Origin: Halohasta salina
GTDB lineage: Archaea > Halobacteriota > Halobacteria > Halobacteriales > Haloferacaceae
DNA: 64,000 nucleotides
Assembly (NCBI RefSeq): GCF_024178165.1
Contig: NZ_JAMZIE010000001.1
Span: forward strand, 186,001-250,000
Direction of reading: 5' to 3'
Under the pieces are notes generated by a model. That model made no database searches. It was not told the origin of the DNA and was given only the letters and a program-made list of their open reading frames with translations. Every line of letters begins with the position of its first letter. Position 1 is the first letter of the stretch. A program made the translations under genes and the position numbers. Positions 55,331 to 58,849 of the stretch are shown here, piece by piece.

Positions 55331-55795
55331 CTACTCTTCTGACTGGTCTGATCCGGGACAGTATCGCAGCGTTAGGCAGTCACTACCGTCGAACCGATCG
55401 GCCGACCGCCCGGTTTCGACGAAGCCGAACTCCTCGTAGAGCGACCGCGCCGGCTCGTTGTCGGCGGCCACGTGGACCGTGACCGCGTCGGCGTCGCCGC
55501 AGGCCGTTGCCAGCAGCGCCCTCGCCCGTCCCTCGCGGCGAAAGCGTGGGTCGACGGCGAGTTCGGCGACATGGGTCGGGTCGCTGCCGACCGCCAGCAG
55601 GTAGCCGACCGGTCGGTCGTCGGCAGTCGGCGAGACGAGCAGTGTAGCGGTACGGATCGGCAGCGACTCCGAGCGCTCGGCGAGCGCCGTCGACAACAGC
55701 TCGGGGCTCGGTTCGATGAGCAGCGACTGGAGTCTGCGGAGTGCGGCGGCGTCGGCCGGTCGAGCCGGCCGAACGAGGGAATAATCGGGGGCCAT
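55331..55795 (-). CDS. GNAT-family N-acetyltransferase
   Basis: 154 residues. 'VGYLLAVGSDPTHVAELAVDPRFRREGRARALLATA' carries the acetyl-CoA-binding Q/RxxGxG/A loop (here RRxGRA), and 'VTVHVAADNEPARSLYEEFGFVETGR' is the RimI-like C-terminal motif. Could acetylate a protein N-terminus or a small molecule. Its start overlaps the DUF92 stop by one base (TGATG), so it is co-translated with it. Confidence 0.88.
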   Translation of the reverse strand: MAPDYSLVRPARPADAAALRRLQSLLIEPSPELLSTALAERSESLPIRTATLLVSPTADDRPVGYLLAVGSDPTHVAELAVDPRFRREGRARALLATACGDADAVTVHVAADNEPARSLYEEFGFVETGRSADRFDGSDCLTLRYCPGSDQSEE

Positions 55796-57108
55796 CAGAG
55801 CAGCCAGACCGCGAGGCCGGCGCTGGCCAGTCCGCCGGTGAGGGTGGCGAGAAAGTTGACCCACTGGTTGCCGAGCCGGCCGCCTTCGAGCGTCGCCCCC
55901 AGCAGGCTGTCGACGGTGATCCCAAGGAGGCCGCCGCCGGCGACCACCGCGGCGGCGGGCCACGTCAGCCCCAGCGGGAGGACCGCCGTCGACAGCAGGC
56001 CGGTGAGGACGACGCCGGTGAGGCCGGCGAGTTCGCCCTGCCAGGTGACCGCGCCGTCGGTGCCGGGATCGACGGGTTCGAGCGTCGTGATCAGCCGCGG
56101 GTCGTCGAACAGGCCGCCGATCTCGCTTGAGAGGGTATCGCCGAGGGCGGTCGCAAGCGAGCCACAGAACGCGAAGAGGAAGCCGGCCGCCAGCGGGCCC
56201 GTGCCGTCGACCACGGCGAAGCCGAGGACGGCGACGAGTGCGACTGCCGCGTTCGCGAGGACGTTGCCGGTGCCGCGGGCCCCGTCGTTGCCTTCGGCGA
56301 CCCCACGGGCTTCCTTGTCGCCGTAGCGGAACTTCGAGGAGAGCCCGCCGATCCCGAAGAAGGCGATCAGCACCGCGAACCAGCCGAAGCCGCCGAGGAC
56401 GATCGTCAACACGCCCAACAGGACGCCGGTCAACATCCCCGACACCGAGGCGGTCCCCAGCCCGTAGGAGACCCCCCCGAGGAACACCGTCACCGCCAGC
56501 GCCGCCAGCAGTTCGGCCGTCGGGATCGCAGCGACGAGTTCGGCGAACAGCCAGCCGACGAGGCCGACCGAGAGCAACACCAGCGGGTCGTCCTGCTCGT
56601 AGAGCAACTCCCGGAGGAGCGCGGCGATCAGCGCCCCGACGATCGCGAGGAACGTTATCACGGGCCACTCGATCGGGGTCGACCCCTGTAGGTCGACTAG
56701 CACGTGGCCGCCGATCCCGGCCAGGAAGCCGGTCGCCACGAACCCCGCGACGACGAAAAACGGCTCGTCGGTGTACCGCCGGACGAGTTCGGTGCCGAGG
56801 TTGCCGAAGCCGAGGATCAACACCGTCGAGACGAAGACGCCGGTCGGCAGCGGCGTCGTCGGGACGGTCGCCAGCAAGGCCAGCGCCGCTGCCGCCAACG
56901 AGAAGCCGGCCAACCCGTTGAGCCGGCGATCCTCCCAATCGCCGGGACGGGCGAACAGTTCGAACAGCGGCCCATCGGAGATCGCCAGCGCCGCCGCAAG
57001 CGCGATGGCGGCGAACGGGATCGCCGCCGCCGACCCGAGCACCGGGGCCGCCAGCGCGAGGCTGGAGACGGCCGCGAATCCGCCAGCGCGTCGGAGCCGG
57101 TCTGTCAC
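55795..57108 (-). CDS. DUF92 integral membrane protein
   Basis: About 437 residues with 11-13 membrane helices. The C-terminal half carries the DUF92 hallmarks 'SSKFRYGDKEARGVAEGNDGARGTGNVLANA', 'FCGSLATALGDTLSSEIGGL' and 'GGLLGITVDSLLGATLEG'. DUF92/VTE6-like members in plants act as phytyl-phosphate kinases, and this one neighbours two prenyl-chain genes, so an isoprenoid phosphate role is possible. The GTG start (57108) is chosen because upstream frame is not membrane-like; 'gttaagtg' lies ~30 bases before it. Confidence 0.82.
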   Translation of the reverse strand: MTDRLRRAGGFAAVSSLALAAPVLGSAAAIPFAAIALAAALAISDGPLFELFARPGDWEDRRLNGLAGFSLAAAALALLATVPTTPLPTGVFVSTVLILGFGNLGTELVRRYTDEPFFVVAGFVATGFLAGIGGHVLVDLQGSTPIEWPVITFLAIVGALIAALLRELLYEQDDPLVLLSVGLVGWLFAELVAAIPTAELLAALAVTVFLGGVSYGLGTASVSGMLTGVLLGVLTIVLGGFGWFAVLIAFFGIGGLSSKFRYGDKEARGVAEGNDGARGTGNVLANAAVALVAVLGFAVVDGTGPLAAGFLFAFCGSLATALGDTLSSEIGGLFDDPRLITTLEPVDPGTDGAVTWQGELAGLTGVVLTGLLSTAVLPLGLTWPAAAVVAGGGLLGITVDSLLGATLEGGRLGNQWVNFLATLTGGLASAGLAVWLL

Positions 57109-57213: not shown

Positions 57214-57819
57214 GTGCTGTACGATACCTACCTCGCCGTTCGGCTCCGACGGCACGCGGGAGAGGCCCCGCGCCACGTCGCAGTCGTACTCACCGAGCGT
57301 GACCTGCTCGAACAGGGGGCCTACGATACGCTGGCGGCCTTCTTCGAGTGGGCCGTCGAGTTCGGAGCCGAGCGGGTCACCGTCTCGGTCAGCGTCCTCG
57401 ACGAGGCGGTGGTGCCGACCCTGCGCCGGGAGCTCGCCGAGCTTGATGCCCCGCTCCCGCTGGCGGTCAGAACACCCGGCGACACCGAAACCGTCGACGA
57501 GCCGATCGGGATCTCGATCGGCCTCGGCGGCAAACGCGAGTTCACCGAGACCGTCCGGCAGCTCGCGGCGGCCGTCGACGACGGCGAACTCACTCCCGCG
57601 GAGATCGAGACCGAACACATCGACGACCGGCTCGTCTTCCGGGCAGAACCCGATCTCGTACTCAAAACAGGGGCCGAGCGGCTCTCGGATTTCATGATCT
57701 GGCAGTCGGTGTACTCGGAGCTGTACTTCACCGACGTCAACTGGCGGGACTTCCGCAAGCGGGACTACCTGCGGGCGCTGCTGGATTACGCCGACCGCCA
57801 GCGCCGGTTCGGCACCTGA
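57214..57819 (+). CDS. Degenerate cis-prenyltransferase paralogue (NgBR-like)
   Basis: 201 residues, GTG start. The C-terminal two thirds follow the UppS pattern: 'GISIGLGGKREFTETVRQLAAAVDDGELTPAEIE' aligns with 'VALAYGGRNELLRATREIAAAVDDGELAPEAI' of the neighbouring enzyme, and 'LVLKTGAERLSDFMIWQSVYSELYFTDVNWRDF' with 'IRTGGDERTSNFLPW...YFCAPYWPEF'. But the catalytic 'DGNRR' is 'TERDL' here, and 'RTGG' is 'KTGA', so it is unlikely to catalyse on its own. It may be a regulatory subunit, as NgBR/Nus1 is for eukaryotic dehydrodolichyl synthase. Confidence 0.75.
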   Translation: MLYDTYLAVRLRRHAGEAPRHVAVVLTERDLLEQGAYDTLAAFFEWAVEFGAERVTVSVSVLDEAVVPTLRRELAELDAPLPLAVRTPGDTETVDEPIGISIGLGGKREFTETVRQLAAAVDDGELTPAEIETEHIDDRLVFRAEPDLVLKTGAERLSDFMIWQSVYSELYFTDVNWRDFRKRDYLRALLDYADRQRRFGT

Positions 57820-57877
57820 AGCGGGTCGACGGGCCGATCGCCGCCGGCAGTCCCTGCCCCACGGCCCTCTCGGCTCG

Positions 57878-58849
57878 TCAGTCGGCCGACTCGGTGCTGC
57901 CGCCGGCGAGATCGGCGTCGGTGTCAGCGAGTTCGGCGTCGGTGTCGGCGAGTTCGGCGTCCAGCGTTTCGGCGGCCGACCGCGGAAGCTGGTCCCGGAG
58001 CCGGCCGGCCACCCGGCGGGCCTCGTCGAGTTCGAGGCTGCCGAGCGCCCGGACGAGGGCGGCCGCGCGGTCGACCTTGCTCTGTTGCCACGATTCCTCG
58101 CGGGACTCGTAGGTCCGGATCCCACGGAGGAAGTCGACTTTCGAGAACTCCGGCCAGTAGGGCGCACAGAAGTAGACTGCCGCCTCGTTACCGTTGGCGT
58201 GCCACGGCAGGAAGTTCGAGGTGCGTTCGTCGCCCCCCGTGCGAATGATGAGGTCGACGTCCCGCACCGGCTGGCGGTAGAGGTGGGATTCGACCGTCTC
58301 GACGTCGATCGCCTCGGGTGCGAGCTCGCCGTCGTCGACGGCTGCGGCGATCTCCCGTGTGGCCCGGAGCAGTTCGTTGCGGCCGCCGTAGGCCAGCGCG
58401 ACGTTGAGCCGGAAGCGGTCGTAGTCGGCGGTTTCGGCCTCGGCGTAGGCGATGGCCTCCCGGACCCGCTCGGGAAGCCGGTCGATCTCGCCGAGCGCGC
58501 GGATGTCGACCTCCCGGTCGTGGAGCCGGTCGCTGTCGGCGAGTTCGTAGAGCTTCCGCGTGATCATGTCGAACAGCGGCTCGTTTTCCACCGCCGGGCG
58601 GTCGAAGTTCTCCGTCGAGAACGTATACAGCGTCAGCTCCTTGATCCCGAGGTCGTCACACCAATCGAGGACCTGTTCGGAGGTTTCGGCCCCGGCGCGG
58701 TGGCCCTCGGGCGCAGCCCCGCCCTGTTTGCGCGCATAGCGCCGGTTGCCGTCCTGAATGATGGCGACGTGTGTCGGCCCGTCGCCGATCTCCCGCCGGA
58801 GGAGGCGCTCGTAGGTCTGCTGGAGTCGTCGGCTCGCCCACGAATACAT
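57878..58849 (-). CDS. uppS: cis-Prenyltransferase (undecaprenyl/polyprenyl diphosphate synthase)
   Basis: 323 residues. 'HVAIIQDGNRRYARKQG' contains the catalytic Asp and Arg; 'LTLYTFSTENFDRP', 'LNVALAYGGRNEL' and 'LIIRTGGDERTSNFLPWHANGNEAAVYF' complete the family pattern. It builds long-chain polyprenyl (dolichol-type) phosphate carriers for glycosylation. A C-terminal repetitive acidic tail ('LADTDAELADTDADLAGG') is extra. Convergent with the degenerate paralogue. Confidence 0.93.
   Translation of the reverse strand: MYSWASRRLQQTYERLLRREIGDGPTHVAIIQDGNRRYARKQGGAAPEGHRAGAETSEQVLDWCDDLGIKELTLYTFSTENFDRPAVENEPLFDMITRKLYELADSDRLHDREVDIRALGEIDRLPERVREAIAYAEAETADYDRFRLNVALAYGGRNELLRATREIAAAVDDGELAPEAIDVETVESHLYRQPVRDVDLIIRTGGDERTSNFLPWHANGNEAAVYFCAPYWPEFSKVDFLRGIRTYESREESWQQSKVDRAAALVRALGSLELDEARRVAGRLRDQLPRSAAETLDAELADTDAELADTDADLAGGSTESAD

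Follow-up and report, generated by a model that had tools for sequence, protein, structure and literature searches.

Complementary motifs in two convergent haloarchaeal cis-prenyltransferase homologues point to a two-subunit enzyme

We examined a convergent pair of cis-prenyltransferase (cPT) homologues in the window, by which we mean the whole 64,000-nucleotide stretch of Halohasta salina DNA that was analysed. One gene, here called A, encodes a seemingly dead homologue with a putative NgBR/NUS1-like role, and the other, B, encodes a predicted catalytic, DHDDS-like subunit of the type annotated uppS. We consider it highly likely, with a probability of about 90%, that the two products are subunits of a single heteromeric cPT, which would make the long polyprenyl diphosphate needed for dolichyl phosphate, the glycosyl-carrier lipid of archaea. 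This reading draws on complementary motifs, co-occurrence, synteny, orthology and predicted folds, and from these we infer complex formation, catalysis with a tail supplied in trans, and the identity of the product. The initial annotation had raised an NgBR-like archaeal two-subunit enzyme as a hypothetical case. Reciprocal motif loss, near-universal co-occurrence, convergent adjacency maintained in many families and orthology to MM_0618/MM_1083 all support the idea, but the enzyme class is not hypothetical, since an archaeal two-subunit cPT has already been reported in Methanosarcina. What is new here is the phylum-wide ancestry of the pair, the complementary split of its motifs and its conserved DUF92 neighbour.

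Results

The two genes lie side by side and converge. Gene A (57214..57819, + strand) encodes 201 aa from a GTG start, gene B (57878..58849, - strand) encodes 323 aa from an ATG start, and their stop codons are separated by 58 bp of intergenic DNA (57820..57877). Both proteins match the Pfam family PF01255: the match of B spans the domain (2e-68, profile positions 1-216), that of A profile positions 118-219 only (3.1e-24). Aligned directly, they share 28% identity (E = 6e-20). The initial annotation had described neighbouring convergent cPT homologues at this locus, and its coordinates were right. On the other side of A, and divergent from it, lies a gene for a DUF92 membrane protein (55795..57108, - strand; PF01940/TIGR00297, PF01940 match 6.5e-52), with a probable GTG start at 57108.

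Gene A has no counterparts of E. coli UPPS Asp26, Gly27, Asn28, Arg30, Arg39, His43, Ser71, Asn74, Trp75 and Arg77. At the DGNRR site, aligned to D26-R30 of the E. coli enzyme, it carries a degenerate P-loop region, HVAVVLTERDLLEQ (residues 21-34; 57274..57315, + strand), in which D26 is replaced by T27, G27 by E28, N28 by R29 and R30 by L31. R39 and H43 are deleted, S71 corresponds to V61 and N74 to E64, and R77 is absent. These losses, which include one deleted helix, imply that the diphosphate-binding loop and the allylic pocket are wholly gone. The loss of the DGNRR Asp and Arg had been recognized in the initial annotation, correctly but with some understatement, as the Arg39/His43 helix and the Ser71-Arg77 pocket have disappeared too. 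It had likewise named the Arg of the RTGG motif as lost; in the segment KTGAERLSDF (residues 151-160; 57664..57693, + strand), which aligns with RTGGxRxSNF, this residue is indeed Lys (R194 to K151), and the loss holds in haloarchaea, with the Arg retained in 15/36 A sequences across the phylum.

What A does retain is the latter half of the fold, including Gly147, Gly196, Phe204, Trp207, Tyr211, Glu213, Phe216 and Asp218 (E. coli UPPS numbering), as well as R200 (R156 in A) and S202 (S158). The final residues of the protein correspond to Arg239, Arg241, Arg242, Phe243 and Gly244 of the E. coli enzyme, that is, to the RXG tail (RRFG). This tail, R195-QRRFG-T201, with R198-F199-G200 as the RXG motif (57796..57816, + strand), is one of the best-conserved parts of A: across 52 diverse sequences there is no variation at R195, R197 and G200 and hardly any at R198, and mean column entropy is 0.85 bits in the tail versus 2.07-2.48 over residues 35-97. 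DGN is found in none of 110 A orthologues, of which 107 end in a C-terminal RXG and three in KXG. The AF2 model of A (pLDDT 87, pTM 0.84) has the UPPS fold (Foldseek, E 1.3e-12), and this, together with the PF01255 match to the C-terminal half, bears out the earlier remark that A keeps much of the cPT fold. We did not find an NgBR-type N-terminal transmembrane segment in A, whose start, VLYDTYLAVRLRRH, forms a short, charged helix that leads straight into the first strand.

Gene B has all of its catalytic residues, namely D33-G-N-R-R37, H50, S78, E80, N81, R84, R203, R209 and S211. The DGNRR catalytic P-loop (residues 33-37; 58739..58753, - strand) is invariant in the B alignment, as are R203, R209 and S211. 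In place of an RXG tail, the protein ends in a helical extension (residues 237-319; 57893..58141, - strand), which the AF2 model (pLDDT 91.2) resolves into helices at 237-270, 274-285 and 290-319; the best Foldseek match of this model is DHDDS (6w2l_A, 3.1e-21). Among 97 B sequences no conserved RXG was present, the five pattern matches being scattered in variable tails. At three B loci the DGNxR frame is not intact, owing to a contig end in two cases and a frameshift in one. The genome to which the window belongs (G000) contains a second B-type gene (C25:82344-83009 / L148:6255-7226), which has neither an RXG nor an A of its own and resides near transposases. If active, the product of this second gene would need to use the same lone A as B does, much as Rer2 and Srt1 share Nus1 in yeast.

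The split of the motifs between A and B, which the initial annotation did not contain, is the strongest sequence evidence that we obtained. The reciprocal pattern, with [RK]xG and no DGN in A and with DGNxR in B, was present in 91 of the 94 genomes that have both genes; in the remaining three, truncation or a frameshift has broken the B frame. Since in known enzymes the RXG tail reaches over from the other subunit of the dimer to complete the active site, the presence of this tail in A and its lack in B back the two-subunit reading. The divergence of A correlates with that of B (r = 0.94), as is expected from shared phylogeny alone.

Across the phylum, A was detected in 292 of 296 genomes (E <= 1e-33) and B in about 291, full-length B being judged from the best E-values of the phylum-wide search. 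Four genomes lack A at this cut-off: two of one genus without any cPT match, and two from family f20, of which the one inspected (G250) does have a strongly diverged A. A full-length B match is missing in five, namely the two cPT-less genomes and three drafts (G365, G386 and G408). No genome with B and without an A-type gene was seen among the 296. Within the class, 241 of 242 genomes have at least two PF01255 genes; the exception (G072) is an assembly of ~120 contigs with a weak A-type match only. Among 30 non-haloarchaeal genomes from ~20 families, all 30 gave an A-type match, and all gave a full-length B except G408, in which the gene is broken. Co-occurrence of the two genes in haloarchaea, which the initial annotation had proposed to check, is essentially universal, and frequent loss of one gene was not seen.

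The two cPT-less genomes (G248 and G256, both drafts of family f18) have kept DUF92 and may have lost both subunits jointly. In a family of Methanosarcina-like genomes, one A gene (G384:C1:2055464-2056108) has a single TAG inside the match, possibly reflecting pyrrolysine or a sequencing error.

B was convergent with A inside the fetched stretch at 67 of 81 haloarchaeal loci (window included), at 38 of these within 200 bp, while 14 of the 81 had no B inside the fetched stretch and 15 more had a gap of > 1.5 kb. Of the 30 other loci, 11 show the same arrangement, frequently with the two genes abutting or overlapping. Its occurrence in both sets suggests that the convergent pair probably predates the haloarchaea, though it has often been separated since, as in Methanosarcinaceae. 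DUF92 lies divergently beside A at 70 of the 81 haloarchaeal loci and at 12 of the 30 others, and it is single-copy in 35/35 genomes checked, the cPT-less G248 and G256 among them. The plant phytyl-phosphate kinase VTE6 belongs to DUF92. As of 2016, the late part of the archaeal pathway to dolichyl phosphate was described as unknown (PMC5088576). Taken together, these two points make a role of DUF92 in the same pathway a lead. The presence of DUF92 in two genomes without cPT makes its link to A positional and weakens that lead, and we therefore did not adopt DUF92 as a committed polyprenol-phosphate kinase partner.

Profile searches against PDB placed B closest to human DHDDS (9.5e-73), above the bacterial homodimers. 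The A profile matches human NUS1/NgBR over positions 13-201, to the last residue (3.5e-11), with bacterial UppS scoring higher; the best 80 matches to A in our contig search were all haloarchaeal. In a maximum-likelihood tree of 83 sequences, A and B form separate clades (support 100/99 and 97/91), each with haloarchaea and Methanosarcinaceae, and MM_0014-like paralogues form a third. The only A sequence outside the A clade is L143, on an extreme long branch. This gene (L143:4083-4577, genome G250 of family f20) is extremely diverged and short, with an open frame of 164 aa, and still ends in RRFG. The third paralogue of G442 is a close relative of MM_0014 (7caq; 3.8e-137), and its last residues, DITLGG, form the tail known from MM_0014. 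As the third Methanosarcina paralogue is of the MM_0014 type, A and B would, by elimination, be the orthologues of MM_0618/MM_1083. These two proteins of Methanosarcina mazei are described in PMC8131916 as a heteromeric cPT with C45-50 products, likely serving the glycosyl-carrier lipid; the original heteromer report is Emi et al. 2019, BBRC 520:291 (ref 15 in PMC8904820). A heteromeric cPT from haloarchaea did not turn up in our literature search.

Discussion

How might the two proteins work together? In the human enzyme, NgBR extends its RXG tail over the dimer interface to enter the active site of DHDDS, and the DHDDS/NgBR complex has a ~400-fold higher activity than DHDDS by itself (PMC7573591). 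By analogy, B would supply the catalytic pocket (DGNRR, His50, Ser78-Arg84 and Arg203/Arg209) and bind the allylic and IPP diphosphates. A, presumably unable to bind substrate, would dimerise with B, and its RXG tail would reach across the interface into the active site of B, as NgBR does with DHDDS. With a helical extension at its C-terminus, B itself seems unable to provide such a tail. The motifs are divided just as in the human complex, which makes a tail supplied in trans the most likely mechanism for A/B.

The lack of an RXG in B alone is no proof that it needs a partner, since MM_0014, which has no RXG and ends in TLGG, is active as a homodimer (PMC8131916). B, with its full set of catalytic residues, could in principle be an RXG-independent homodimer of this kind, leaving A as a pseudo-enzyme that serves some unrelated purpose or only regulates. 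We regard this as improbable: B has a helical extension and no TLGG-type substitute tail, A has conserved its RXG tail although it has no pocket for that tail to serve, B was never seen without an A-type gene, and the Methanosarcina orthologues are reported as a heteromer. Nor do we take B, or A, for a homodimeric archaeal cPT of the MM_0014 type: both fall outside the MM_0014-like clade, and neither ends in TLGG, A having RRFG and B a helical tail at the C-terminus.

Less probable still is that A has become a separate, neofunctionalised cPT with a different prenyl or phosphate substrate. Such a role might be read from the ITERDLLE segment at its P-loop site, which is nearly invariant in 81 haloarchaeal A sequences (TERDLLE standing in the place of the P-loop), and from the partly retained K/R194, R200, S202 and E213 region. 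The P-loop replacement is, however, not conserved outside haloarchaea, the D26 position across the phylum being T in 18 of 36 sequences, S in 7 and A in 5. The R39/H43 helix is deleted in all A sequences aligned, and it is the C-terminal half and the tail that are best conserved. The loss of catalytic motifs would also be expected of a functionless, decaying duplicate kept by chance, an explanation to which we give almost no credence, because nearly every genome of the phylum keeps A, whose reading frame is intact and some of whose residues never vary. This conservation contradicts the view of A as a pseudogene.

The two-subunit reading changes how these genes would be interpreted. By homology, haloarchaeal B would be taken for a stand-alone UppS and A for a second synthase, whereas here they would constitute one enzyme, a distinction that matters for any reconstitution or knockout of the haloarchaeal dolichyl phosphate pathway. 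The two-subunit design appears near-universal in a whole archaeal phylum, and A/B would be an analogue, without the membrane anchor, of the disease-linked DHDDS/NgBR complex. The pair also makes the evolutionary origin of DHDDS/NgBR testable. That the human complex was inherited from a single ancient archaeal split into catalytic and tail-donating subunits, and was not an independent eukaryotic invention, is conceivable and, in our estimate, rather unlikely.

Among known systems, the closest by tree and elimination is MM_0618/MM_1083 of M. mazei, which would share with A/B an RXG-less catalytic subunit, a dead RXG subunit and a presumed role in glycosyl-carrier lipid synthesis. Emi and colleagues reportedly found almost no activity for either M. 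mazei protein alone. The two genes are not linked in the Methanosarcinaceae genomes that we examined, which often have a third paralogue of the MM_0014 type, whereas haloarchaea mostly have the convergent pair beside DUF92. Bacterial homodimeric UppS, such as E. coli UPPS, has the same fold and chemistry but carries DGN and RRFG on one chain, unlike the A/B pair, in which the DGN and RXG motifs are divided between two proteins; we rejected a homodimeric UppS for A or B, as neither has DGNxR and RXG on the same chain. The human complex resembles the pair in its division of labour: DHDDS, like B, has no RXG and bears a helical C-terminal extension, and NgBR, like A, is dead and ends in a C-terminal RXG. 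It differs in the N-terminal membrane segment of NgBR, absent from A, and in its C85-100 product, archaeal carriers being shorter.
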